Source of the DNA: Aureispira anguillae
GTDB lineage: Bacteria; Bacteroidota; Bacteroidia; Chitinophagales; Saprospiraceae
DNA: 64,000 nt
NCBI RefSeq assembly: GCF_026000115.1
Contig: NZ_AP026867.1
Coordinates: 5,320,001-5,384,000 of the forward strand
Direction: 5' to 3'
The first letter of the stretch is position 1; each line of letters opens with the position of its first letter. Below the pieces are notes generated by a model. The model worked only from the letters and a program-made list of their open reading frames with translations, was not told the origin of the DNA and ran no database searches. The translations under genes were made by a program, and so were the position numbers. Of the stretch, positions 12,041 through 29,500 are shown piece by piece.

Positions 12041-13045
12041 TCAGAACCCTTCTATACCATTAACCGTGGTATATTTAAGCGTTATCTTTTTTTCAGGATG
12101 AATTATTTTAAACGCAGATTGTACCATCAAAGTAGCTTCGTGAAAACCGCACAATATGAGTTTCAATTTCCCTTCGTAGGTATTAATATCTCCAATAGCA
12201 TAAATACCAGGTATGTTGGTGCTATAATCTAAGGTATTGACCTCAATGGCATTTTTAGAAATATTGAGTTTCCAATCGGCAATAGGTCCCAATTTGGGAG
12301 ACAAACCAAAAAGAGGAATAAAATGATCTAATTGTTGCGTGTAGGTTGCTTTGGCTTTGGGTTGAATGACCACTTCTTCCAATGCTTGAATTCCATTTAG
12401 ACCAACCACCTGCGCATCTGTTATAATATTAATTTTTCCTGCTTCCGCCAATTCATAAGCCTTTGAAACAGAATCTGGCGCAGCTCTAAATTTATTGCGT
12501 CTATGAATCAATGTAACTTCTTGAGCTATATCTGCCAAATGAATGCTCCAATCCAAGGCAGAATCTCCCCCTCCTGCTACCCAAACTCGCTTATTGGCAT
12601 AAAAAGCAGGATCTTTGATGATGTACTCAACGCCATTATTTTCATACTTTGCAATATTATCAATAGGAGGTTTACGAGGCTCAAAACAGCCTAAGCCTCC
12701 CGCAATTGCAATAACAGGTGCATTAATTTCTGTTCCATGACTTGTGGTCAATTTAAAACTGCCATCCTCCAAACGCTCGATTTCTTCTGCACGCTCTCCC
12801 AAGGTAAATTCAGGCTTAAAAGGAGCAATTTGTTGCATCAAGTTGTCAATCAAATCTCCCGCCAAGATAGAAGGAAAACCAGGAATATCATAAATTGGTT
12901 TTTTAGGATAAATTTCCGAACACTGCCCTCCTACCTGAGGCAAGGAATCTACCAAATGACACTTCAAGCGTAATAAACCTGCTTCAAAAACAGTAAATAA
13001 ACCAGTAGGTCCCGCTCCAATAATGATAATATCTGTCTTTTTCAT
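12041..13045 (-). CDS. TrxR-like ferredoxin/flavodoxin-NADP+ reductase
   Basis: A protein of 334 residues. It has an FAD-binding motif GAGPTG (10-15), the conserved QVGGQCSEIYPKKPIYDIPGFP segment (37-58), an NADPH motif GGGDSALDW (158-166), basic HRRNKFRA (181-188) for the 2'-phosphate, and a C-terminal FAD closure YAIGDINTYEGKLKLI. The redox CxxC of thioredoxin reductase is absent, which marks the TrxR-like (YumC-type) ferredoxin-NADP reductase family. It is last in the sulfur assimilation cluster. The inferred job is to pass NADPH electrons through ferredoxin to the siroheme sulfite reductase upstream. Confidence 0.9.
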   Translation of the reverse strand: MKKTDIIIIGAGPTGLFTVFEAGLLRLKCHLVDSLPQVGGQCSEIYPKKPIYDIPGFPSILAGDLIDNLMQQIAPFKPEFTLGERAEEIERLEDGSFKLTTSHGTEINAPVIAIAGGLGCFEPRKPPIDNIAKYENNGVEYIIKDPAFYANKRVWVAGGGDSALDWSIHLADIAQEVTLIHRRNKFRAAPDSVSKAYELAEAGKINIITDAQVVGLNGIQALEEVVIQPKAKATYTQQLDHFIPLFGLSPKLGPIADWKLNISKNAIEVNTLDYSTNIPGIYAIGDINTYEGKLKLILCGFHEATLMVQSAFKIIHPEKKITLKYTTVNGIEGF

Positions 13046-13131
13046 TTCATGTATTTATTTTTGCTTTTTTATAACCACTCATGCGCCATATTACTGCATG
13101 GTGATTGTTGAAAATTATATGCAGAAGTTGT

Positions 13132-13818
13132 TTAAAAATGTAAGCCACACTCTGTTTTTAAGCTCCCTGTCCAGCGACCATTTCGCCCTTGCCCCCTCTT
13201 CGTACAATGCAAGCAACCAATAGAGTCATACCCCAATGCTTCCAAAGGGTGAGCTGGTAAATCTGCTTGTTGATAATAGTGGTTAAAATCTGCTTCCGTA
13301 AGATCTATTAGTGGATAAAATTTTAGAATGTTATCCTTTTGCTCAAAGATGTCTAAGTTTCTTCGATAAGGTGTTTGATAAGCCATCAAGCCAGAAATCC
13401 AAACTTCATAATTCAACTTTACCTCTTCCAATGGCGCAACCTTATTAATACGACAACATTTACTAGCATTGGTTTTCCACATTTCTGCTGTAAGGCTCTG
13501 CTGATGTAATGCTTCTTTGGGATAGATATTAACAACCTTTAGGTTAAAAGCAGCGGTTAACTTTTCTTTATAAGTCAACGTTTCTTCGAAATGATAACCC
13601 GTGTCCAAAAAATGAATCGGTTGTTTGGCTTTTATATTACTCATCCAATAAAGCAATAAAGCTGATTTTGTCCCAAAGGAGGAAGTCAATAAAACATCCT
13701 CTAGTTTAAAATAAGAATACAGCAATTCTAAGCGTTCGATAGGTTCTAATAATTTGAATCGATTGTTCAGTGCCTGTAACTGCTCTGAACTAATCTTGCT
13801 GTCTAGTTTTAGCTGCAT
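13132..13818 (-). CDS. cysH: [4Fe-4S] adenylyl-sulfate / PAPS reductase
   Basis: The start at 13818 (MQLKLDSK) gives the normal length of 228 residues; the frame runs further up but would extend deep into the preceding gene. Family motifs are SSFGTKSA (47-53), the LDTGYHF segment (71-77), and cysteine pairs C121-C122 and C202-x2-C205, which ligate the iron-sulfur cluster of APS-type reductases. Catalytic C224 lies in the C-terminal ECGLHF. It reduces APS (possibly PAPS) to sulfite with thioredoxin electrons. The four cluster cysteines favour APS as substrate. The start overlaps the end of the DUF2061 gene by 29 bp. ATP sulfurylase genes are not in the window. Confidence 0.93.
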   Translation of the reverse strand: MQLKLDSKISSEQLQALNNRFKLLEPIERLELLYSYFKLEDVLLTSSFGTKSALLLYWMSNIKAKQPIHFLDTGYHFEETLTYKEKLTAAFNLKVVNIYPKEALHQQSLTAEMWKTNASKCCRINKVAPLEEVKLNYEVWISGLMAYQTPYRRNLDIFEQKDNILKFYPLIDLTEADFNHYYQQADLPAHPLEALGYDSIGCLHCTKRGQGRNGRWTGSLKTECGLHF

Positions 13819-14068
13819 ATTTTTGATTTTTTTGCACCACATCATTACCCTTAGGCATAGAAAAAGAGTAGCCCCAATTGATTTTAATCCAAATTCGCTC
13901 GTTGACATAAAACAACATAAATTTTACCACTGTATCCGTTAGCCCTATTGTTGTTGCCAATTCAAGATTACCCGTAAAAATCAAGGCAATAGAAAACGTT
14001 GCTATTGTTGCCCCAGCCCTATAGCTAACTGCCTTGGTAACCGTTCGTCGTTTTTGTTCTTTTATCAT
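13790..14068 (-). CDS. DUF2061 small membrane protein in sulfur operon
   Basis: A protein of 92 residues: basic N-terminus (MIKEQKRRTVTKAVSYR), two hydrophobic segments (about 18-36 and 40-55), and conserved family residues in SYRAGATIATF, TIGLTDTVVKFMLFYVNERIW. It matches the DUF2061 (predicted membrane) family, often found beside sulfate assimilation genes. It starts one base after the upstream siroheme gene and overlaps cysH by 29 bp, so it is translated as part of the operon. Its role is unknown; association with sulfate or sulfite handling is suggested only by context. Confidence 0.82.
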   Translation of the reverse strand: MIKEQKRRTVTKAVSYRAGATIATFSIALIFTGNLELATTIGLTDTVVKFMLFYVNERIWIKINWGYSFSMPKGNDVVQKNQKYAAKTRQQD

Positions 14069-14069
14069 A

Positions 14070-14651
14070 CTAAGCTGACTTTTCTAATAAACTTTCTGTC
14101 AACGCATTTAGAATTTTGACTTTTCGCTGAAAATCAACCCCCAACGTTTGTCTAAAATCATACATATTGTCCAATAAATCTTCTATTTCATCGGGTAGAA
14201 TATGCTCTAATAATTGGCGCAAACGTTTGGCAAAAGTTGGAGATTTGCCATTGGTAGAAATCGCAATTTTTAAATCGCCTTTGCTCACAATAGAACCCAA
14301 GTAAAAATCGCATAACATTGGGGTATCTGCCACATTTACCACAATCCCCCTTGTTTTGGCTTCTCCCCAAATGTATTTGTTCAAGGAATTATTATTCGTT
14401 GCAGCAATAACAAAACTCTTTTTTTCTAAGTCATACAATTGAAAAGAGCGTTCAATTAGGGTTACTTGATGTCTGCGGCCAAAAAGTAGCGATCGAATTT
14501 TTGGCGAAATTTCTTTAGCCACCAAAATGACCCTTGCTTGTGGGCTATTTTTGATCAAAAGACTCAATTTTTCATAACCAACATGACCTCCTCCGACTAT
14601 GAGTATCGGCAATTGATTGACCTTTAGGAAAACAGGATATAATTCATTCAT
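14070..14651 (-). CDS. precorrin-2 dehydrogenase / sirohydrochlorin ferrochelatase (CysG N-domain type)
   Basis: A protein of 193 residues matching the Met8p/SirC/CysG-B module: Rossmann motif GGGHVGYEK (20-28), VAATNN near 100-ish (VIAATNNNSLNKYI), VNVADTPMLCDFYLGSIV with the family's catalytic Asp, and ISTNGKSPTFAKRLRQLLE. It oxidises precorrin-2 with NAD+ and may insert iron to give siroheme, the cofactor of the sulfite reductase encoded in the same cluster. The methyltransferase half of classical CysG is a separate gene immediately upstream. Confidence 0.92.
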   Translation of the reverse strand: MNELYPVFLKVNQLPILIVGGGHVGYEKLSLLIKNSPQARVILVAKEISPKIRSLLFGRRHQVTLIERSFQLYDLEKKSFVIAATNNNSLNKYIWGEAKTRGIVVNVADTPMLCDFYLGSIVSKGDLKIAISTNGKSPTFAKRLRQLLEHILPDEIEDLLDNMYDFRQTLGVDFQRKVKILNALTESLLEKSA

Positions 14652-14731
14652 GACAATTATTTTTTAGTATTTTGGAAACAACTCAACTTGTTTGCTTTAG
14701 TTGACCAAAACAGGTTATTATTCTATCGTTT

Positions 14732-15505
14732 TTAGTTTTTAAGTGCTGTGGCAATCGCATAATCTCTTGCCAAGGTAGGGTGCAGCCCTACGACCTCTCC
14801 GATTACAATAATTGCAGGCGTTTGGATGTTTTTTTCATGGACGCTTTTTGCTATATTTTTGATTGTTCCTATCGCAACTTTTTCATTTGCCAAAGAGCCG
14901 TTTTGAATCACCATAACAGGCGTATCGTGCTTTCTATGTTTTCGCAACAAACTTGTTATTTCTGCTAATTTTTTTAGCCCCATCAACACGACCAAGGTTG
15001 AATTGGATTGAGCCGCCAAAGAAAAATCGCTGGGCAATTCCCCATATTTAGTTGTCCCTGTCAAAACCCAAAAGCTTTGGCTATACTCTCTATGAGTTAA
15101 AGGAACCTGTTGTAAAGCCGCCAAGGCTGTACTACTTGATACACCAGGTACAACAACCGTTTCGATATTAAATGCTTCTGCATACTGCAATTCCTCTTGT
15201 CCTCGTCCAAAAATAAAAGGGTCGCCTCCTTTTAGACGCACAACATGACCATGCGAAAAAGCATAACCAACGGCCATCAAATTAATTTCAGATTGGGTAA
15301 ATCGATGTTTATTGGCTCGTTTTCCCACATCAATTTTTAGCGCATTCTTAGGGACATTATTTAACAATTCTGCGTTTGCCAAAGCATCATAAAGTACCAC
15401 ATCAGCCGTTCGTAAGGCTCTTAAACCTCTTACCGTAATCAAATCGGCACTTCCTGGACCTGCGCCAATCAGGGTTATTTTAGGTTGGTTTTTAATTCTC
15501 TTCAT
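14732..15505 (-). CDS. cobA: uroporphyrinogen-III C-methyltransferase (SUMT)
   Basis: A protein of 257 residues with GAGPGSADLITVRG (14-27) for SAM binding, YDALAN (40-45), RLKGGDPFIFGRGQEE (91-106), VVPGVSSSTA and PLTHRE, all diagnostic of SUMT. It methylates uroporphyrinogen III at C2 and C7 to precorrin-2, feeding the dehydrogenase encoded 80 bp downstream. A MITE-like palindrome separates it from the sulfite reductase gene upstream, so read-through transcription across that element may control its level. Confidence 0.94.
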   Translation of the reverse strand: MKRIKNQPKITLIGAGPGSADLITVRGLRALRTADVVLYDALANAELLNNVPKNALKIDVGKRANKHRFTQSEINLMAVGYAFSHGHVVRLKGGDPFIFGRGQEELQYAEAFNIETVVVPGVSSSTALAALQQVPLTHREYSQSFWVLTGTTKYGELPSDFSLAAQSNSTLVVLMGLKKLAEITSLLRKHRKHDTPVMVIQNGSLANEKVAIGTIKNIAKSVHEKNIQTPAIIVIGEVVGLHPTLARDYAIATALKN

Positions 15506-15836: not shown

Positions 15837-17966
15837 TTAAGCTTTGTAATGCTCTGATAAAACCCGTTTACTTCCATCCAATTCCTTGCGTCGATATTCA
15901 ATTACCTGCTCTAAAAATGCGGCTGCTTGCTGCCAATAAGTCACAGCAAATACCTCCTCTGGTGTATTTTTATTGATTTGTAATACCAGCTCTGCAAAAT
16001 TTCCATCCAAGTCAAACTTTCCCGTTTCGATCAATTCCTTATCAAAATCATTGATAATTCCAATTTGTGTATTACACTTTATATCTACCCCTAGCAATAC
16101 TGCTTTGGCAGCAATTACAAAGGCTCCATAACTGAGGTAGATGCTATCTCCCCATAAGTTTTCTTTTAATGCTTGATTGCTCAATTGAATTTTTTCTTTG
16201 GCATCATTAATAATCGTAGCAACCATATCAAAAGCCACCCCTGCACACTCTCCTACTCCAATTTCTTTTTGGTAGGGTTTTTCTTGTCCCCAATCCCAAA
16301 AATCACTTGGATGTAAATTGTCTTTAATCGCCAATGCTTTTAATAAGTTGTAGAAATATCGTTTTCCTTGTCGTTTTACATAATCATTAAAATACTCTCC
16401 TCCTAACTCCTTTTCTTCATAATCATCCAGCAGCCAAACCAAAGCAGTAGGGATTCGTTTAGAGGGTAGTTTGATAATTTTTTCAGCAATAAATCCATTA
16501 CCTTTTTCGTCTACTCCTCCTCCCAACACCACCTGCATTGCAGGCAGTACTTCTTTGCCAACTTTGATGGAACTTCCATGAAATCCAATATTCGCAGCCA
16601 TGTGTTGCCCACAAGCATTCATACAACCACTAATCTTTATTTGGATTGCCTTTTCACCAATCAGATGCGCATAATTTTCTAGCAACACATTTTCCAATTG
16701 CTTGGCCAAAGCAGTACTATTGCTCACTCCAAGATTACAAGTATCTGTTCCAGGACAAGCCGTAATATCAACAATAGCCCCAAAGCCTGCATCAGCCAAT
16801 CCCAATTCATCTAAAGCATTATACAAAGCAGCTAAAGAAGCCTTAGGAACGTATTTTATCAAAATCCCCTGATTGACGGTCAAGCGTAATTCATTGGCAG
16901 CATATTGTCGAATAATAGCTGCTAATTTTAGTGCCGAAGAAGCGCTAATATCCCCCAACCTAATTTTGAGCAAAACGGCATAATATCCTGCTTGTTTTTG
17001 TTCGAAAGTATTGGTCAATTGCCATAATTTATAGCTGGTAACATTAGCAATTGTTGGTTCTTTATGGTCAAGATCAGAAGCAGGAGGCGTAGGTTGCCAA
17101 TTCCCCGTTGTGTCAATATGTACCGTTAGCTGCTCTAAGGAAGGATATTCCTTTTCTACTAAGGATAAAAAATGAGCAACGCCCCACTTTTTTAATAAAA
17201 ACTTCATGCGAGCCTTCATCCTTTTCTCTCGCTCTCCATAACGATCAAAGACACGAATAGCAGCTTCTACAAATGGGATAATACGTTCTTCTTCTAAAAA
17301 CTCATACACCGTTGGAGCTACCATTGCCTGTGCCCCCAATCCACCACCCAATAAGACCTTGAAGCCACGCTTTCCTTCTTTCAATCTGGGTATAAATCCA
17401 AAGTCGTGGAAATAAGCAAAAGCAGAATCTTCGTCTGTCGCCGAAAAAGCAATTTTAATTTTACGTCCCATTTCTTGGCAAATAGGATTTCTTAGGAAGT
17501 ACTCAAACATTGCTTGTACATAGGGAGATACATCAAATAGCTCCTCTGGATGAATTCCTGCTTTGGCGGATGCTGTAATATTACGTACCGTGTTTCCACA
17601 AGCCCCCATGGCAGTAACCCCAGCTCTAGACAAATCTGCCCACAAATGGGGTGAATCGCCTAATTTGACATAGTGTAATTGGATATTTTGACGGGTAGTT
17701 AGATGCAAATTTCCAGTACTGTATTGGATAGAAGCTTGCGCCAAGGCTTCTAGTTGTTCTGTTGTTAAGCGTCCAAAAGGGATTTTAGTTCTAAACATTT
17801 GTACCCCTACCTGACGTTGCCCATAGACTCCTCTTGTTAGTCGATAATGTTTAAACCGTTCTTCATCTATTCGTCCGAGTCGCACGTCTGTAATTTTACG
17901 ATCAAGCTCAATAATATCCTGCTTGTCTACCGATTGTATATTTTCTAAATTTAATTTTGTTGCCAT
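15837..17966 (-). CDS. siroheme [4Fe-4S] sulfite reductase (nitrite/sulfite reductase family) with C-terminal extension
   Basis: A protein of 709 residues. Ferredoxin-like NIR_SIR domains flank the catalytic halves: GRLTTEQLEALAQ and YSTGNLHLTTRQNIQLHYV (81-100), then GNTVRNI (124-130). The cluster/siroheme ligands are C404-x5-C410 (TACPGTDTC) and C448-x3-C452 (GCMNACGQH). It reduces sulfite to sulfide with ferredoxin electrons. Nitrite as substrate cannot be excluded from motifs, but the neighbours (cysH, siroheme genes) favour sulfite. Residues about 575-700 form an extra helical C-terminal domain (GECAGVAFDMVATII; SIYLSYGAFVIAAKAVL; AAAFLEQVIEYRR) absent from short enzymes, resembling a HEPN-like helical bundle. 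The gene is preceded by two cysteine leader attenuators. Confidence 0.9.
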   Translation of the reverse strand: MATKLNLENIQSVDKQDIIELDRKITDVRLGRIDEERFKHYRLTRGVYGQRQVGVQMFRTKIPFGRLTTEQLEALAQASIQYSTGNLHLTTRQNIQLHYVKLGDSPHLWADLSRAGVTAMGACGNTVRNITASAKAGIHPEELFDVSPYVQAMFEYFLRNPICQEMGRKIKIAFSATDEDSAFAYFHDFGFIPRLKEGKRGFKVLLGGGLGAQAMVAPTVYEFLEEERIIPFVEAAIRVFDRYGEREKRMKARMKFLLKKWGVAHFLSLVEKEYPSLEQLTVHIDTTGNWQPTPPASDLDHKEPTIANVTSYKLWQLTNTFEQKQAGYYAVLLKIRLGDISASSALKLAAIIRQYAANELRLTVNQGILIKYVPKASLAALYNALDELGLADAGFGAIVDITACPGTDTCNLGVSNSTALAKQLENVLLENYAHLIGEKAIQIKISGCMNACGQHMAANIGFHGSSIKVGKEVLPAMQVVLGGGVDEKGNGFIAEKIIKLPSKRIPTALVWLLDDYEEKELGGEYFNDYVKRQGKRYFYNLLKALAIKDNLHPSDFWDWGQEKPYQKEIGVGECAGVAFDMVATIINDAKEKIQLSNQALKENLWGDSIYLSYGAFVIAAKAVLLGVDIKCNTQIGIINDFDKELIETGKFDLDGNFAELVLQINKNTPEEVFAVTYWQQAAAFLEQVIEYRRKELDGSKRVLSEHYKA

Positions 17967-18054: not shown

Positions 18055-18105
18055 GCTAAAACAGAAAAAGCCCTTTCAGGAAAAATAATTTCCTGAAAGG
18101 GCTTT
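18055..18105 (-). terminator. proximal attenuator terminator upstream of sulfite reductase
   Basis: A perfect 17-bp stem (18067-18083 with 18089-18105) and a 5-nt loop. On the minus strand it runs straight into TTTTTCTGTTTT. It lies after the stop of the cysteine leader at 18130-18228 and about 100 nt before the sulfite reductase ATG, the position of an attenuator rather than of a gene-end terminator. Confidence 0.88.
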
Positions 18106-18129
18106 CGCACTGGATGGATAATCGTTCGT

Positions 18130-18228
18130 CTATACTTTCATCCATAGCATGCTCATCCGCTCACAAGAAATTAACTTGTAAAAGCAACAACAACAGATGC
18201 AACAGATATGGATGGTATTAATTAACAT
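18130..18228 (-). CDS. proximal cysteine-run leader peptide (32 aa), predicted attenuator
   Basis: A short frame ATG-TTA-ATT...GTA-TAG encoding MLINTIHICCICCCCFYKLI and 12 more residues. Cysteines occupy positions 9, 10, 12-15 and 22; five of the six in the run region use or neighbour TGT codons. Four consecutive Cys codons by chance are very unlikely in AT-rich non-coding DNA. The stop is 25 nt before a strong terminator. By analogy with known amino-acid leader peptides, stalling at Cys codons under cysteine or Cys-tRNA shortage would relieve termination and allow sulfite reductase expression. Translation itself is not proven. Confidence 0.75.
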   Translation of the reverse strand: MLINTIHICCICCCCFYKLISCERMSMLWMKV

Positions 18229-18269
18229 AATGTATGTGATAAATAATTTTAAAGATTGAGTTATAAAAA

Positions 18270-18304
18270 CAAAAAACCTCCTAGAAAAAGATCTCTAGAA
18301 GGTT
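18270..18304 (-). terminator. distal attenuator terminator between the two cysteine leaders
   Basis: An 11-bp stem with one G-U pair (18275-18285 with 18294-18304), followed on the minus strand by TTTTGTTTTT. It lies 42 nt after the stop of the distal cysteine leader and 42 nt before the ATG of the proximal one. Confidence 0.8.
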
Positions 18305-18345
18305 GCTTATTTATTATTGAAAATAGACATCATACAGCTTGCATC

Positions 18346-18414
18346 CTACCAGAGTTTTTTCTGACAAGTGCAACAACAACTTAAGTTAAGTGAGTATGTA
18401 GTACTAATTTTCAT
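18346..18414 (-). CDS. distal cysteine-run leader peptide (22 aa), predicted attenuator
   Basis: ATG-AAA-ATT ... TGG-TAG encodes MKISTTYSLNLSCCCTCQKK plus LW. Cys codons TGT-TGT-TGC-ACT-TGT cover residues 13-17. The Cys run (TTGCA, 18369-18373) can pair with TGCAA just past the stop (18339-18343), a possible pause hairpin. A terminator follows at 18270-18304. The frame starts about 40 nt after a consensus promoter, so it is the first thing translated on the transcript. It has no sequence similarity to the proximal leader outside the Cys run, so it is not a simple duplicate. Confidence 0.72.
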   Translation of the reverse strand: MKISTTYSLNLSCCCTCQKKLW

Positions 18415-18455
18415 GTTTATTTTTTAGTTCAAAACCTTTATCTGGTTTGTTGACA

Positions 18456-18488
18456 CAAATTTAGTGCATTTTAAATTACAATACCAAA
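18456..18488 (-). promoter_or_regulatory. promoter of the sulfite reductase leader transcript
   Basis: On the minus strand TTTG (18485-18488), 21 nt, then TAAATTTG (18456-18463) fits the Bacteroidota consensus. No second promoter of this type was seen between the two leaders, so both attenuators appear to lie in series on one transcript. Confidence 0.7.
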
Positions 18489-18649: not shown

Positions 18650-19408
18650 ATGAAAACGCTAATCATAAATCGATTAAAAGCATTAGAAAAAACTTATAAA
18701 ATCACAATACTTTATGCCTGTGAATCGGGTAGCAGAGCTTGGGGTTTTGCCTCTCCTAATAGCGATTGGGATGTGCGGTTTATCTATGTTCATACTCAAG
18801 ACTGGTACCTGTCTATCAACGAACAAAAAGACAGCATGGATTTTGCCATTGACCAAAATGATTTAGATCTAAGTGGTTGGGAATTGCGCAAAACATTAGG
18901 TCTATTAAGCAGTTCTAACGCTAGCCCTTTTGAGTGGTTACAATCTCCTATTGTTTATTTAGATCCCTATCGTTTTAGATCGAGTTTATCCAACTTATTT
19001 CCTGTATATTTTAAACCTCGCTCTACAGCTTTTCATTATTTAGGCTTGGCAAAAAGTTCTATGAAAAAAGGCTTGATTAATGGTCAAATGGACATCAAAA
19101 AATATTTCTATGTACTGCGTCCTCTTCTTGCTGCGTATTGGATTTGTCACAAAAATAGTATTCCTCCTATGGAGTTTGCTCCTTTGTTAGAACAACTAAA
19201 AGACAACCGTCCTTTGTATTCAGCCATTAAGGAATTGGTCATCCAAAAAAAAGCAGCCTTAGAGGGCGATTTTACAAGTCCTATTCCCCTTATTCAAGCG
19301 TTTATCGATTATCAATTGAATGCCTGTGGTCTTTTAGCTAAAAACTTAGAGGCAAAACAACAAGATAATGAACCACTAAATCGCTTGTTTAGGGAATTTA
19401 TCATCTAG
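18650..19408 (+). CDS. RlaP-type nucleotidyltransferase (DNA polymerase beta superfamily), first of a tandem pair
   Basis: A protein of 252 residues matching the COG3541/PF10127 predicted nucleotidyltransferases. The nucleotidyltransferase signature GSRAWGFASPNSDWDVRFIY (about residues 27-46) supplies G-S and the D-x-D metal ligands. A helical C-terminal half (MKKGLINGQMDIKKYFYVLRPLLAAYWI) is typical of the family. Comparative genomics has linked RlaP enzymes with RNA repair and ligation modules. No ligase or 2',3'-phosphatase gene is seen here. The second family member follows 56 bp downstream, in the same direction. Substrate unknown. Confidence 0.82.
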   Translation: MKTLIINRLKALEKTYKITILYACESGSRAWGFASPNSDWDVRFIYVHTQDWYLSINEQKDSMDFAIDQNDLDLSGWELRKTLGLLSSSNASPFEWLQSPIVYLDPYRFRSSLSNLFPVYFKPRSTAFHYLGLAKSSMKKGLINGQMDIKKYFYVLRPLLAAYWICHKNSIPPMEFAPLLEQLKDNRPLYSAIKELVIQKKAALEGDFTSPIPLIQAFIDYQLNACGLLAKNLEAKQQDNEPLNRLFREFII

Positions 19409-19464: not shown

Positions 19465-20535
19465 ATGTTGAGCATAAAAGATATAAAAGAAAAAAAACTA
19501 CTGTTATTTGAATGTATCAGTGGAAGTAAAGCTTATGGCTTAGATTTACCGACTTCAGACACGGACATCAAAGGTGTTTTTGTACTTCCAAAATCGATGT
19601 TTTATGGGTTAGAATATATTTCTCAAATTAATGGTGCCAATAATGATGAGGTTTATTACGAGTTGACCCGTTTTATAGAATTGCTTTACAAGAACAATCC
19701 CAATATTTTAGAGTTGTTAAATACGCCCAAAGATTGTATTTTATACAAACACCCCCTATTTGACTATTTAAAACCTGACTTATTTCTATCCAAACAATGT
19801 CGAGATACTTTTGGGGGCTATGCCATGTCTCAAATAAAAAAAGCCAGAGGGTTAAACAAAAAGATCATGAACCCAATGGAAAAAAAGCGAAAATCGGTAT
19901 TGGACTTTTGTTATGTACAGTATCAACAAGGAGCACTTAGTCTAGGCGCTTGGCTTGACAAAAAAGGTTTTAAGCAGGAAAATTGTGGCTTAGTTAATAT
20001 TCCTAATATGCGAGATCTTTATGGCTTGTATTATGACAGCAACAAGGAATACAATTTCCAAGGAATTATCCGCTCTAACACTGTTGACACTGTTGCTTTG
20101 AGTAGTGTTCCGCAAGAAGCACAGCAGGTCGCAATCCTTTCTTTTAATAAAGATGGTTATAAAAAGTATTGTAAGGATTATAAACAATATTGGGACTGGG
20201 TGAGCAAACGCAACAACAGTCGTTACGAAAATACAATTGCTCATGGAAAAAACTACGATGCAAAAAATAGCATGCATACCTTCAGGTTATTGGATATGGC
20301 AGAAGAAATTTTAGCCTTGGGCAAAATTAGAGTAAAACGCCCCAATCGAGAACAGTTGTTAAAAATAAGAAAGGGAGAATTTGAATACCAAGAATTAATA
20401 AATCAGGCAAAAGCAAAAATAAGTCGGATTGATGCCTTATTTGATCAATCACCACTTCCTATGGCACCTGATAAGGAAAAAATAGAACAGCTCTTAGTTC
20501 AAATTAGAACAGAATTTTACCGCTTACATTCATAA
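19465..20535 (+). CDS. RlaP-type nucleotidyltransferase, second of a tandem pair
   Basis: A protein of 356 residues from the same superfamily as its neighbour but strongly diverged: catalytic signature GSKAYGLDLPTSDTDIKGVF (about 20-39) with D-T-D metal ligands. This is followed by YELTRFIELLYKNNPNILELL and a helical region with SQIKKARGLNKK and FRLLDMAEEIL. It is about 100 residues longer than the first gene, with an insertion rich in aromatic residues (YKQYWDWVSKRNN). Probably co-transcribed with the gene upstream. Whether the two act as a heteromeric enzyme or on different RNA or protein targets cannot be told. Confidence 0.8.
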   Translation: MLSIKDIKEKKLLLFECISGSKAYGLDLPTSDTDIKGVFVLPKSMFYGLEYISQINGANNDEVYYELTRFIELLYKNNPNILELLNTPKDCILYKHPLFDYLKPDLFLSKQCRDTFGGYAMSQIKKARGLNKKIMNPMEKKRKSVLDFCYVQYQQGALSLGAWLDKKGFKQENCGLVNIPNMRDLYGLYYDSNKEYNFQGIIRSNTVDTVALSSVPQEAQQVAILSFNKDGYKKYCKDYKQYWDWVSKRNNSRYENTIAHGKNYDAKNSMHTFRLLDMAEEILALGKIRVKRPNREQLLKIRKGEFEYQELINQAKAKISRIDALFDQSPLPMAPDKEKIEQLLVQIRTEFYRLHS

Positions 20536-20590: not shown

Positions 20591-23500
20591 CTAACGTTGA
20601 AGCATTATATAACCTGAGTATTGATCTCCAACTCTACCTTCACTCTTATTGGTTCCAGTTCCAGTATGCGTTGTATCGTTTAATTTAAGAATATAGAAAT
20701 AAGTACCATCTGGTAAATCTTTTCCATTAAACTGCCCATTCCATCCTGATGGCGCTCCTTCGTAAACTAATGTTCCCCAACGAGAGAATATTTGCATTAA
20801 AGCATTAGGGTAGTTGTTTCTACAACGAACAATCATTTCATCGTTTACTCCATCACCATTAGGAGAAATACCTTGTGGAACAAAGCACTCAAAATCTGTT
20901 GTTACCTCAATCAGTACTTCTATTGTATCACAACTATTAGGACATTGAGCATCACACAAAGAATAATGCAAGGTATCCACCCCAAAGAAACCTGAACGAG
21001 GATAATAGTTGATTGTTCCATTTACTTCATCTAAACGAATCGTTCCTCCATCTGTGCTATCAACAATTGTTAGTAAATGACCATCTGGATTTGGATTATC
21101 ATTATTGATAATCTTATTACCACCTGCTGTTGCACTAGTTAATGAATCTCTAAACTCAATGGTAAAGAAGTCATCTCCTCCTGTTGGAATAGTTTTATAA
21201 ACAACATTTGCCGTATCCCCTACCACAGAAAGACAACCATTCATAGAAACCGTCAACATATACTCCCCTACACTTGCATTGGACAAGACCAATTGCCCAA
21301 TAGTAGTCGTATCAATCGTTCCTGTTGGAGTCTCCCAATAATACAACACAGGAGGTGAAGTATAAATAGAAGTGTCTTGTAGTTCTAACAAATCACCTAC
21401 ACACAATGGCTGCGTATAGAATAGACTTGGTTGTGCAGGAGTTGGACTAATCGTTACATTTACGGTTCCATCATTTGAACAGTTATTCGCATCCGTAATC
21501 GTCAAGGAATAAAGCCCTGCAAATGCTTGCGTCGCATTTAAACGAACTGGATCTGCTGTTGTCGTACTAAATCCTGCTGGACCATTCCAATTATAAGTAT
21601 ACCCCGCTGAATTATTAAACAAAGTCAAGCTTTGTCCTTCACAAGGAATATTGGCGGTAGGAATTGGCGCTATTGGTAAATCTAGTACATCAAAATTAAA
21701 GCCAGCAGTTGAACTATCAGAACAAATAGAGGCTCCCTGCTCAACTTGTATTGCCATTGAATAACTCCCACTATCTGCCGCAGACATATTTGGTATAATC
21801 AATGAATCTGTATTATTGGCAATTAAATTTCCATTAAAATACCAATCGTAAGTAATTGTACTACCTACATAAGTTGAGCTATTTGACAAATGGATAATCG
21901 CCGTATCCCCGTCACATGGTGCTGTTCCAATCAAGACAGGAGGCTGTACTTCATTAATATCTAAATAAATAGAATCAGAAGCTGGACAACCACCAGAAGG
22001 AGGTATAATGGTGAAAATATAATACCCTTCATCTGCAATTCCTACATTTGCTATCATCGTGTCCTTAACCGTTGGATCCTGTGTTATTTGTATTCCAGAG
22101 CCCTTACTCCAAGCATAATCATAATTAATACCATTAGGGTCTACAAATGCACTTAATGGTAACGTATCGCCTTCACAAAGTGTTGTATCTTGCGATGGAA
22201 TTAAAATACTTGGATACTCCAAAAATACACTAGCTGTATCTTGACAAGTTCCTATGTTTCCGCTATGATCTCTTGCGGTCAATGTAAAGACAATATCTCC
22301 TCTATCCGTACAGGTAATTGTATCTGGCGTTACCCATGCCGTATCGATTCCACAATGATCAAAAACAGTTCCTACACTATAAAGTCCAGTATCAATAGTC
22401 AACACAACAGAACCATTCTGTCTCAAATCGACAATCACATTATTACAAGTAACGGTTGGTTTAGTCGTATCTTTTACTGTCACTACCGCCGTACAAGAAT
22501 CTGTATTATTGTAAATGTCGGTGACAATAAGCGTGACATTGATACTTCCTGTATCGGAACAATTAAATGACATAGAAGTCGCTCCTCCACTAAATGTTCT
22601 ACTAGCAATATAGGTACAGTTATCAGAGCTTCCTCCATCTACACTATCTGCTATAATACTAGCATTTCCATTGCTATTTAGATAAACATCTATATCTCGG
22701 CAAATTACAGTTGGTGGTTCATTATCGACCACTTGCATAACACTAGTACAGTTGCTTTGATTATTACTAGCATCTAACACCGTTAATACAACCGTATTAT
22801 TAGCTCCTACATCAGAACAATCAAAAGTATCGCTAGCTAGTCCATTAATTAAGAAAGAATCCACCGTACAGTTATCCGAAATATTATCCACCAGATGGAT
22901 AGCTGGTACAATTGCAATCCCAAATGGGTCTAGTTGTGCAACAACCGTATCATGACAGTTGACTGTAGGCGCAATATTATCTAGCAAGGTAATTGTTGAC
23001 TGACAAGTATTTTGATTACCAGCAGCATCCGTTACGGTTAGTACTGCGACAATAGAATCACCAGACGCAGGAATACTATCACAAGTATATACAATACTAT
23101 TTTGACCATTGATGAGTGTATCAACTATTGCACAGTTATCTGTATTAAAGGCTCCAATATCAGCTCCTGTTACGGTAACACTTCCTGCTGAATCCAAAGC
23201 AACTGTTAAGTTTTGACAAAATGCAGTTGGAGGAATCGTATCACGGATATTAAGAATCGCATTACATTGTGCAAAATTACCACTTGGATCTTCTACTCTA
23301 ATGGTAACCAATTGGGCAATTCCTACATGAGAGCAATCAAAAGTAGAATCTGGAGCACCATTGATATACCAATACAAAATAGAACAAACATCATTAGCGG
23401 TAGCAACATCCCTTGGATCTACATTGACTACCCCATTTGCTCCTAAATAAAAATCTACAGCAGCTAATGGACATTGAATACTTGGTGGTGTTCGGTCTTC

Positions 23501-26500
23501 AACGGTAACATTTGTCGCACAGAAACTAGCATTGTTATATTGGTCAATTACCGTTAATACAACCGTATTGGTGATTCCTACATTTGAACAATCAAAGGTA
23601 TCTTGTAATTGATTATTGATTAAGTATTCACGAATGCCACAGTTATCTGAACTCAAACTATCGATATCTGATGCTCCAACATAGGCTATTCCAGCTGGGC
23701 TTAAAGTAACCGTTATACTACTACATTGAGCAACAGGAGGAATTGTATCCAATACGTCGATGTCAACGATACAAGTACTGCTATTATTGGATGAGTCAAT
23801 TACCGTTAAGGTTGCTGATGGGTAAGAACCGATCTGACCACAATTGTACAAAACAGAATCGGTACCGTTTATCTGATAATCTATAATTTGGCAATTGTCA
23901 AAACTAGCACTATCTATAGCTGCTGCTGTTACCCAAACAATACTATTATCATTCAAATAAGCAGGAACAGGGTTGGTAGGACAAATTGCCGTAGGATTAA
24001 TATTATCGGTCACATTAACAATAGCATTACAAGTAAATGTATTTCCTGAAGAATCGGTTACGACAACTGATATTTGGTTGTTGCCAATACTGTCACAAGT
24101 AAATATCAAAGTATCTTGACCGTTGCCCTGTATTGAACTAATACCACAGTTATCTGAAGAGGAAACGATCAAATTGTTTGCTAACAATGAAACGGATCCC
24201 GTAGAATCTAATGTTAGGTTTGTTGTAAATTGACAAGTTGCCGTTGGAGGTGTAATGTCCTGTACATTTACAGTAGCATGACAAGTATCAAAATTTCCAC
24301 TTTGATCTACAACTCTCAATACAGCAGTATTTGCTCCTAACATAGAACAATCATAGGTAGCTTGTGCTTGCCCATTAATTAAAAAGGTAGCGATTCCACA
24401 GTTATCTGTACTGGTATTTATGGTACTGTTTAAATTGAAAGCAGGAACAACAAATTGTCCAGTTGAAGCAGAAAGAACTGCATTGATAGAACTACCACAA
24501 CGAGCAATAGGACTAACAGTATCTTGTATTGTGATCGTAGAAATACAAGTATCGGTGTTACCAGAAAAATCCGAAACGGTAAACATAACCGTCATTGGGG
24601 TTCCTATAAAATTACAGCTATACGTCAAACTATCCTGTCCATCAATTCTAAAGGTCGTTGAATCTATATTACAGTCATCTGTACTTCCAAAATCCAAATC
24701 AATAGCATGCACTGTCGCAAAACCATTCGCCCCTACTTGTGCAACGTAATTGGTTTTACAAACAGCTGTAGGAGCCGTACAATCCCGTACCGTCACATTT
24801 GCAGTACAAGTAGCAGAATTTCCATTTATATCTTGTCTTAGTAACGTTACAGTCTGAACGCCCAAATCAGCACAAGTATAAATAATGTTATTGGTTCCAT
24901 TAATCGTCTGTATTGCTGATAAACCACAAGCATCTGTGGTACCTCCATCAACATCAGCCGCTATAACATTTACAAAACCACCACTAACACAAACGGTTGT
25001 ATCTCTACATACCATTGTAGGAGGAACGGTATCTACTACTTCTATATTACCATTACAACTACTTGAGTTTCCGTTTATATCTACAACCGTCAATGTTACA
25101 GTATTGAATGGTCCAACATTCGCACAAGTCAATGTATCAGGACTTGTATAAGCTGTATCCACTCCACAAGCCTCAATAATATTGGCTGTAATCCAAGTAG
25201 GATCTACTGCCAAAACGCCATTGGTATCCAAATATTGGGTGGTAATCGCACAAGTTACAGAAGGAGGGGTAACATCTCTAACGGTAATAACAGCATTACA
25301 AGAAGCCGTATTGCCACTAACATCGGTAGCTGTTAAAACAACCGTATCTAACCCAACATCTGCACAAGTATAATTAACAACATTACTACCATTTAACGTT
25401 AATGTACTTACTCCACAAGCATCTACAACGGTATATAAACTAGTATTAGAAGAATCTATAGTGGCATTTCCAAAACCATTTAAATCAACTGTAATATTAT
25501 TACAAGTAATTGTTGGCGAAACGGTATCTAGTACGGTCAATGTTGTAATACAAGAATCCATATTTCCATTCGCATCGGTAGCAATTAAGGTAATAGGGTG
25601 TGTACCAACATGCGCACAAGTTACTAAGTTAGGAGCACCTGTAAAACTTAAGTTAGCAATTCCACAAGCATCTGCCGTTCCTGCATCAAACATAGAAGCA
25701 GAAACAGGAGCAACTCCCCCAGCACTCAAATGGATATTAACAGTTACTGGCTGACAAGCCATTACTGGTCGAATGGTATCTGTAATATTTACCTGTGCTA
25801 TACAGTTATCTGAATTATTACTCTGATCTGTTACTGTTAAGGTTACGTTGTTAGGGTTATTTCCAATATTAGAACAATTGAATGTATCTTGTGAAAGCAC
25901 CATACTTGTAATCGTACAATTATCTGTGCTTCCTGCATTTATATCTACAGGAGACAATACAGCAATTCCTGCGGTATCCAAAACCAATTGGACAACGGTT
26001 CCTATACAATTTGCAGTTGGGTTTACATTATCAACTACTGTAATTGTTGAAGAACAATTTGCGGTATTACCACTTGGATCTCTCATAAACACGGTTGCAA
26101 TAACAGGAGTTCCTAAATTAGCACAAGTAAGTGTAATTGAATCTTGCCCATTGACCAACATAGTATCTATAGAACAATTATCAAAACTACCAGGAGCTAA
26201 ATCCGTTGCAGCTACTCTTACATTTCCATTCGCATCCAATGTTACTGTTGGATTAGAACAGAATGGCGTTGGACTTAAGGTATCAGAAACATTTACAATA
26301 GCATTACAAAATCCTGAATTATTACTTGAATCCGTTACTGTCAATGTAACTACATTGGTACCAATATTTGTACAGTTAAATGTCGATTGGCTTAAACTTA
26401 TATTGTCAATGGCACAATTATCCGTACTTCCGTTATTAATTGCTGCGGCTGTCGTTGAAACCGTTGATCCTACTAAGTATAAATCTAATGGTGTTGTAAT

Positions 26501-29500
26501 ACAATTTGCTACAGGAGCAACCGTATCGGCAACTGTAACTAAAGTAGTACATGAATCTCTATTCCCACTCTGGTCTGTTACAACCATTGTTACAGTATGT
26601 GTATTGTTAGGAATATCTCCACAAGAGAAAACAGATCTAGAAAGTGTATAATTAACAATATTACAGTTATCCGTACTTCCGTTATCTACATCCGTCGTCA
26701 ATAATGTCCCTGTGCTAGTAAAAGCATCTAAGATCAAGGTCACCATTCCATTACAAGAAGCATTAGGAGCTGTTACATCTTCTACAAATACTGTTGTTGT
26801 ACAAGAATCTGAGTTACCACTTTGATCCATACCAACTAAGGTCACATTATTCGATCCTAAGTCAGCACAAGTCATATTTACAAATGGTCCTCCATTAATA
26901 GTATACGTTGGTACATTACAGTTATCAGAACTTCCTCCATTAATATTATTAGGAACAACAATAGCGTTTCCTGTACCATCTAATTGTACCGTATCAGGAC
27001 GACAAACCATAGAAGGAGGGGTACTATCTCTTACAATAACCGTTGTATTACAAGTAGAACAATTGTTAGAGCCATCACAAACGGTTAAAACAAGTGGATT
27101 AGGGTTGGTGGCTAAATTTGCAGAAGTAAAGGTAGCATTTGGTAAACCTCCTACTCTAAATGTTAATGAGCCACTACAGTTATCGGTACTACCATTATCA
27201 AATGTAGACGCTGGAACCGAGGCAAAACAAGTATTATCTAAATAAACAGTACGTACATTAGGTCCTATACAGTTGGCAACTGGTGTTATGGTATCCAGTA
27301 CTGTTATATTAGCAGAACATTGTGCCAAATTACCAGCACCATCTATAATAAGCAATTGTGCAGTGTTTACTCCTACTTGATTACAATTATAAGTAACAGA
27401 TGGTAAGTTATTAATTCGACGAGTAAAGGTACAATTATCAGAACTTCCTGCATCTATATCAGCAGGGAATACAGTAACCACACCTGCCGCATTTAAATAA
27501 AGTGTTGTATCGTGGCAAAGTGCTGTAGGATCAAGATTATCTTCAACAACAACATTTGCAATACAAGTACTTTGATTTCCAGATTGATCTAATACAGATA
27601 AAGTAACAGCTGTATTACCAAGACTTGCACAAGTATAAAAGAATGAATCAACTCCATTGACTAGCATCGTATCCACTCCACAAATATCAGAACTACCATT
27701 ATTGACGTTCAAAGGAACAACAAAACCATTTCCTGAAGCATCTAGTTGTACTGGATATGGCACAGGACGACAGCTAGCTGTTGGTGAAATCGTATCTAAA
27801 ACGGTTACGGTTGTTTGACAAGTTGATGTATTTGATGAAGCATCTGTAACAACAACATTTACCGTACGAGGTCCAATACTATCACAATTGTATATAATAT
27901 TAGAACCACCTCCTTGGAAGGTAGTCGTAATGGTTCCACAATTATCATTGGTAGCAGGAAAAGCCAAGACGGTATTAGGTGTAATTGCTACCGTACCAGA
28001 AGCTCCTAAATAAACATTTGTGATTTGGCAAGAAGCTGTTGGAGGGCTATTATCAACTACATTAATCGTCGTTGGACAAGTAGCGATATTCCCTGAAGAA
28101 TCTCTTACTGTCAATACAGCCCCTAAAGAACCTACATCCGCACAGGTGTACGTTTGAACACTAGATCCATTAATCAAATATTCTACTAATCCACAGTTAT
28201 CGGTACTAGCAGAATCAATATTAGATGGTGTTACAGTAGCCAAACCAAGTGCATTAAGTGTTGTTGTATAACTAGCTTCACAAAGTGCTGTAGGATTAAC
28301 AGTATCTACTACTGTTACTGTTGTATTACAGCTTCCTGTATTCCCCGCAGCATCTTGTATAATGAGCGTTGTTGGTTGAGGGGTAAAGATAGCTGAACAA
28401 GTAAAGTTCGCAGATGAAATTCCTACCACATTAACAAAGCTATCAACAACACTACAGTTGTCCGAGCTTCCCATACTTAATTGTGTAGAAGTTACTGTAG
28501 CCAAACCTGCATTATTCAAATAAACAGTAGGAGAAGCACAATTTGCAACAGGATCAATTGTATCTAGTACTGTTACATTAGCTGCACAAGTACTTCCATT
28601 CCCATAACTATCTTGCACCGTTAAGGTTACTGTATTAGGATTACTAAGGGTATTTGTACAGTCAAAATTAGCTGTGGAGCTACCATTAATTAAGAAATTT
28701 AGGTTGTTTCCCGTACAAACATCCACACTATTATTGTTTAGACTATCTGCTTGTAGCGTTGCAGCCCCTGTTCCATCAACATAAATTGTAAAGTTTCTAC
28801 AAATAGCTGTTGGAGGAAAGGTATCTAATACGGTCACTGTAGATACACAAGAATCTACATTTCCACTTGCATCAAATACATGTAGTGTAACATTTTGTGT
28901 TGTTCCTATATGAGAACAATTATAAGAAACACTTGCTACTCCATTAATATCAAGGCTATCTACAGAACAAATATCTACAGAGTTGTTGTCTACTTCTGAA
29001 GCTAATAACGTTCCTGTTCCTGTCGCATTAAGGTACACGGTAACGTTTTGACAAATTGCAGTAGGTGCTGTAGTATCTAAAACAATAACTACTGCATTGT
29101 GGCAGGTATCCAAATTGCCAGAATTATCTGAAACAATCAACATAACAGTATCCGATCCTATATCTGCACAGGTATAAACAGGATCAGGACCAGTATGTAC
29201 ATCAACCCATCGTCCAGCAATCGGTGGACAAACATCAAAACTTCCATTGTCCAAATTGATAGCAGGCATCGTAAAAGGACCATTTCCTACATAGGCAGTA
29301 TCTTGCCCACAAACAGCAGTTGGGGCGATGGTATCAAAGACTTGTACAATAACTCTACAAGAATCTGCATTTCCATTGCCATCTTCTCCTTTTACAAAAA
29401 ATTGTTGGAATCCCGTTACACAATCAAACTCAATGTAAGATTGCCAAGGACTACCAGGTGTGATATTTCGTACTTGTTTTGTGATTGGACCACAATTGTC

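Follow-up and report, generated by a model that had tools for sequence, protein, structure and literature searches.

The siroheme sulfite reductase gene in the window, by which we mean the whole 64,000-nucleotide stretch of Aureispira anguillae DNA under analysis, is very probably preceded by two ribosome-mediated transcription attenuators in series. An earlier note on this DNA had described two tandem Cys-codon leaders, each with its own terminator, in front of sulfite reductase, and direct reading of the sequence confirms this arrangement together with the NIR_SIR-type gene behind it. That the arrangement is a duplicated cysteine attenuator, as the note also held, is supported by the Cys frames, their mixed codons, the spacing of the terminators and an antiterminator pairing that is kept. 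To this we add the antiterminator itself, further genes that carry such leaders, versions with Cys and Met codons and lineages that lack the device. The full anatomy has comparative support, and it suggests how these bacteria control sulfate assimilation and cysteine synthesis.

Anatomy of the window locus

A promoter, two leader frames and two terminators follow one another on the minus strand ahead of sulfite reductase (Table 1). The promoter claimed in the earlier note is present and can be assigned to the Bacteroidota type by what we take to be the consensus of that phylum; a scan for sigma-70-type sites found none on the minus strand of 18055-18488. Its position predicts a transcript start about 35 nt upstream of the first AUG. 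The second terminator is likewise there, although by our scoring its hairpin has 18 pairs around a loop of 5 nt, not the 17 bp previously given to it, and terminator-like sites in 1.7 kb number three, terminators 1 and 2 included, against 1.1 (sd 1.1) in shuffles.

Table 1. Features of the sulfite reductase locus in the window (positions count from the first letter of the window)
Feature	Position	Strand	Remarks
Promoter, Bacteroidota type	18456-18487	-	TTG (-33) at 18485-18487; -7 element TAAATTTG at 18456-18463; read directly
Leader ORF 1	18346-18414	-	22 codons + stop; MKISTTYSLNLSCCCTCQKKLW; read directly
Cys codons of leader ORF 1 (CCC-T-C)	18364-18378	-	
Antiterminator 1, 5' strand	18345-18354	-	CTCTGGTAGG; codons Leu-Trp-stop + G
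Antiterminator 1, 3' strand	18293-18302	-	CCTTCTAGAG; equals 5' arm of terminator 1
Terminator 1 hairpin	18275-18304	-	T-rich tail follows
Leader ORF 2	18130-18228	-	32 codons + stop; MLINTIHICCICCCCFYKLISCERMSMLWMKV; read directly
Cys codons of leader ORF 2 (CC-I-CCCC)	18184-18204	-	
Antiterminator 2, 5' strand	18157-18172	-	AATTTCTTGTGAGCGG; within leader 2, past the Cys run
Helper hairpin inside antiterminator 2	18107-18152	-	arms 18138-18152 and 18107-18121
Antiterminator 2, 3' strand	18087-18101	-	CCCTTTCAGGAAATT; equals 5' arm of terminator 2
Terminator 2 hairpin	18066-18106	-	T-rich tail follows
Siroheme sulfite reductase, first structural gene	15837-17966	-	Pfam NIR_SIR, 3.5e-46
Remaining sulfur cluster	12041-15505	-	tetrapyrrole methylase, siroheme synthase type, DUF2061, PAPS reductase (CysH), pyridine-nucleotide oxidoreductase (FNR-like); Pfam

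Leader 1 can be aligned in two near-identical relatives of the genus Aureispira (L002, L051), its length being off by one codon; the counterpart in L002 reads MKIIITYSINTCCCSCQKKLW and the string CCC-x-C-QKKLW is kept in two genus relatives. Leader 2 is conserved in L002 and L051 as well. The reductase is 77% identical to that of Aureispira sp. CCB-QB1, the nearest named relative (Saprospiraceae), and judging from gene order it would form one operon with the genes that follow. Within this cluster the DUF2061 membrane protein gene (13790-14068) lies with siroheme synthase on one side and CysH on the other. Divergent from the cluster are two adjacent genes (18650-19408 and 19465-20535) with matches to RlaP, an RNA repair nucleotidyltransferase family, and 20591-30526 on the minus strand encodes a repetitive, secreted-looking protein of 3311 residues.

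Conservation and mutually exclusive pairings

Conservation of the Cys frames in relatives, a check proposed in the earlier note, was assessed in 130 loci with homologous reductases (30 + 20 + 80), of which 106 were distinct, had at least 300 nt upstream and were kept. With a detector that asks for a Cys-run ORF and then a terminator at a set distance, the frames prove conserved: at least one unit is present on the sense strand of 68 and at least two on that of 43 of the 106 upstream regions, while the same detector finds none on the 106 antisense strands and none in 318 dinucleotide shuffles. The twin arrangement of Cys leader and terminator is thus confirmed to be far from chance. Looser rules place leaders in 72 loci (44 double, 28 single), one of which (L107) looks false, and score 34 as being without; these 34 include one poly-Cys frame that anchoring missed (L125), one locus with little upstream sequence (L004) and two with sparser Cys frames plus terminator by eye (L022, L130). 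Beyond the Saprospiraceae, named bearers include two Cyclobacteriaceae MAGs (L083, L096), Marivirga aurantiaca (L127) and a Flavobacteriales MAG (L086). A plain pattern search (TGYx4 or TGYx6) gave a leader unit outside longer frames in 5 of 56 loci (L131-L186). As to duplication history, terminators within one locus score 9.2 alike, against 9.0 for first terminators across loci.

Cys runs, which reach 11 Cys at most, mix TGT (446) and TGC (225) in 105 of 112 cases, which indicates that the amino acid is conserved and rules out a triplet-repeat artefact. Second leaders are richer in Cys than first ones (6.9 vs 5.7; p = 0.0003, n = 44), and the distance from last Cys to terminator in first leaders is 55.6 nt (sd 7.0). 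Met is frequent in the three codons before the runs (76 of 334 residues; elsewhere 129 of 2415), an excess that may partly reflect true start codons because the farthest start was taken, and no residue is more common than Met in the three codons behind them (43).

A terminator below -10 kcal/mol lies behind 112 of 116 leaders, and among 52 units compensatory changes are seen at every one of the 13 terminator pairs. Within the linker that joins Cys run and terminator, a strand pairs with the terminator 5' arm, so that this pairing and the terminator exclude each other. A linker pairs with its own arm at -10.6 kcal/mol on average, compared with -7.7 (sd 0.2) for permuted partners, and none of 10,000 permutations does as well, be it with all leaders or with the 92 non-redundant ones; the own arm is also preferred over that of the other leader at the same locus (p = 7e-5, n = 70). 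Leader by leader the signal is uneven: duplexes reach z < -1.64 against shuffled linkers in 65 of 112 leaders and stay above it in 47, leader 2 of the window included, and own-versus-other-locus pairing reaches that level in only 26 of 112. The strand that pairs best begins at a median of 14 nt past the last Cys codon. In 111 of 112 cases its start precedes the first base of the stop codon or lies no more than 15 nt from it, where a ribosome on the stop codon would cover the strand. If a ribosome is placed on the last Cys, the RNA left free has a folding energy of -14.7, compared with -8.2 once the linkers are shuffled (82 of 112 have z < -1.64), and with a ribosome at the stop the pairing drops to -1.6 kcal/mol, which is partly a mere effect of the shorter RNA. 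In all states modelled, equilibrium favours the terminator (mean probability 0.92-0.96). Hence antitermination must be kinetic, much as timing decides it in classical attenuators.

In the window, CTCTGGTAGG, which includes the stop codon of leader 1, pairs with CCTTCTAGAG and forms the core of a 16-nt duplex with the 5' arm of terminator 1 (-16.7 kcal/mol, z -5.0 against shuffled linker). A ribosome at the first Cys of leader 1 gives moderate support (fold z -1.7, 12 of 200 shuffles as good), while for the last, isolated Cys there is no support for a stall (z +0.8, 162 of 200 as good). In leader 2, AATTTCTTGTGAGCGG closes over the helper hairpin onto CCCTTTCAGGAAATT. Here the fold is strongly supported when the ribosome stands on the final Cys of the run (-27.0 kcal/mol against -16.6, sd 3.0, for shuffled linker; 0 of 200 as good) and 2 of 200 shuffles are as good when it stands on the first Cys, although antiterminator 2 as a simple duplex reaches a z of only -1.0.

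Proposed serial gates, rival readings and known systems

Of the 44 double loci, 15 have the exact element TAnnTTTG upstream of leader 1 (shuffled 4.4, sd 2.0), whereas 29 lack it there; upstream of leader 2 it occurs in one of 44 (shuffled 4.5, sd 2.0) and, as a bare count with no control, upstream of single leaders in 5 of 28. We reject a second promoter between the leaders, since the element is scarcer there than in shuffles. These counts favour one start and two gates in series, and a single transcription start would thus serve both leaders. Across the set, what is found in sequence are leader ORFs with clustered Cys codons, intrinsic terminators, an antiterminator that (for the set as a whole) excludes them and Cys-making genes as the presumed targets; leader translation, ribosome stalling, termination in vivo and a response to cysteine are what we infer. 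From one promoter, the transcript would have to pass both terminators before sulfite reductase. When charged Cys-tRNA is plentiful, a ribosome at the leader stop would cover the 5' strand of the antiterminator and allow the terminator to form. When it is scarce, the ribosome would stall among the Cys codons, as a rule about 14 nt short of that strand, leaving the strand to pair with the terminator 5' arm, and RNA polymerase would read on. Since both terminators must be passed, escape probabilities should multiply, and multiplied escape may in turn provide for low leak and a steep response. With two attenuators for the same signal kept in 44 of 106 loci and recurring before other genes, the contribution of the second one is directly testable.

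An alternative model sees the poly-Cys nascent chain itself as the sensor, its thiols being modified by a metal, an oxidant or reactive sulfur species, which would arrest the ribosome and operate the same RNA switch. Runs of up to 11 Cys seem to exceed what codon-specific stalling would need, and units also precede peroxiredoxin-like genes (L283, L232). However, residues flanking the runs vary, inserts are tolerated (CCICCCC, CCPCCCCC, CCCRCCCC), and the mixed Cys/Met clusters of relatives suit codon demand better than a peptide motif, so we regard this model as improbable. Somewhat less probable again is the mode put forward for mycobacterial poly-Cys ORFs, in which attenuation is translational or depends on Rho, with the hairpins merely capping short transcripts. 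Such a mode would be in line with the Actinobacterial Cys leaders, which according to the available part of PMC1262725 have no conserved terminator hairpins in Mycobacterium, yet it is at odds with intrinsic terminators behind nearly all leaders of our set and with 5' arms that match their own linkers. Scarcely credible is a role of the frames as genes for small functional proteins rich in Cys, metal-binding ones for example, followed by ordinary terminators: long Cys runs would fit, but by eye only Cys and the neighbouring Met are common across loci, and the pairing of linker and terminator is left unexplained. A known riboswitch or T-box was rejected, the window having no match to an Rfam family at gathering thresholds.

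We keep to ribosome-mediated attenuation of transcription, the mode of the trp, his and ilv systems. Like these, the units described here combine a short ORF rich in codons for the pathway product, an intrinsic terminator and an exclusive antiterminator that a ribosome on the stop codon would mask; unlike them, they concern cysteine, and often one full unit follows another with codons for the same amino acid in both. Among published systems, all cited here for the parts of the papers available, ilvB1 of Mtb is an example of such an attenuator (PMC13236596), and the same paper mentions mycobacterial poly-Cys leaderless ORFs (Canestrari 2020). Those ORFs and the Actinobacterial Cys leaders (PMC1262725) resemble ours in being poly-Cys leaders upstream of sulfur or Cys genes. 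They are, as far as these sources go, translational or without conserved terminators, whereas ours have terminators and antiterminator pairing; absence of an intrinsic terminator, a criterion for the mycobacterial class, does not describe a set in which 112 of 116 leaders have one. The mycobacterial ORFs are also leaderless, in contrast to the predicted stretch of about 35 nt ahead of the first AUG here. In Rhodobacterales, the uORFC-8-2 motif ahead of cysS similarly has uORF Cys codons and then an intrinsic terminator (PMC8632094), but it has two Cys codons, serves a tRNA synthetase gene and belongs to alpha-proteobacteria, and the available text does not mention a second unit. Tandem attenuators with two leader ORFs in one 5' region are described for Salmonella mgtCBR (PMC3641672), where the signals differ (ATP, proline), while both leader ORFs here carry Cys runs. 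For Bacteroidota, a study of the Flavobacterium psychrophilum transcriptome mentions leader-peptide attenuation at amino-acid operons, the available main text using 'cysteine' only for a protease (PMC9723704), and sORFs resembling leader peptides are mentioned for B. thetaiotaomicron (PMC7366714, in part). In the main texts of open-licence papers, we found neither a cysteine attenuator nor any worked-out amino-acid attenuator from this phylum.

Leaders before other genes and reductase loci without them

A further 40 loci, nearly all non-reductase and high-scoring, were hand-picked from listed matches to an RNA model. The model has a match in 139 of 150 and 201 of 296 genomes, figures that should not be taken for numbers of leaders because many of the weak matches look like plain terminators. 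A unit lies before a clear gene in 27 of the 40, two are doubtful (L257, L271) and 11 have none; double units occur in 11 of the 27. Genes behind these 27 are cysteine-synthase-like (PALP; 11), RimK/glutathione-synthetase-like ATP-grasp (8) and CysH-like (3) and, once each, FNR-like, Cys_Met_Meta_PP (MetY-like), JAB-like, AhpC-TSA and sulfite reductase, as named by Pfam for six representatives (the JAB match being below cut-off) and by resemblance for the others.

Surveys of 80 family genomes lead in several cases to loci already among the 27. With one leader-bearing protein as query, a cysteine-synthase-like homologue was found in 20 genomes; at 53% identity or more, 12 of 13 have a unit (one doubtful, L367) and 10 have two, and at 36-39% identity none of seven has one. 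An ATP-grasp homologue was found in eight genomes, with a unit before five. All eight RimK/glutathione-synthetase-like genes among the picked loci (L252, L254, L256, L258-L260, L263, L267) have a single Cys leader unit, and their product may be a Cys-containing thiol or peptide. Because units precede unrelated sulfur genes, they can flag unrecognised ones, the ATP-grasp family being an example. In the window genome itself, units stand only at sulfite reductase among the 10 of 32 model matches scanned, and taking in two genus members (30 of 74 matches scanned) leaders stand at sulfite reductase plus one doubtful site (L413). In another family (f17), Cys-run units with terminators are seen in L225, L228 and L247 with no obvious sulfur gene directly behind, and L246 has a Cys-run unit upstream of a gene that by eye is carbonic-anhydrase-like.

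Outside the family, Cys or Cys/Met leaders with terminators occur up to about 4 kb upstream of a CysH/CysD-type gene in 6 of 40 genomes (7 leaders, one region being double), with none on the 40 antisense strands. Examples are an MMMCMCC frame and then an MMMMCC frame upstream of a CysH-like gene, and MCCMMCCMMM upstream of a gene that is sulfurtransferase-like by eye; in two other families MetY-like genes have such leaders (L235, L240). Some mixed leaders may hence read both sulfur amino acids. Whether all this amounts to a Bacteroidota-wide sulfur amino acid regulon built on serial attenuators for the same signal, Cys-rich in Saprospiraceae, mixed and reading both amino acids elsewhere and swapped for promoter operators in some lineages, is to us an evenly balanced question. 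If it does, serial identical attenuators would be a general route to a steep, low-leak switch built from RNA alone.

Leaderless reductase loci bear on the last of these points. An inverted-repeat-like motif near the promoter is common to 11 of the 34 and present in one of the 72 leader loci, while TTCATATGATC or close forms are common to nine other leaderless loci and present in none of the 72; both motifs were picked by eye from the same sequences, so these counts are descriptive. They suggest that attenuators are replaced by DNA-binding regulators in leaderless lineages. The TTCATATGATC type is seen in L080, L082, L085, L089, L092, L114 and L129 (Neolewinella/Lewinella), and an inverted repeat like CTACTAATTTGGTAG in L081, L095, L098, L099, L103, L106, L110, L112, L116 and L122 (Roseivirga, Sinomicrobium).
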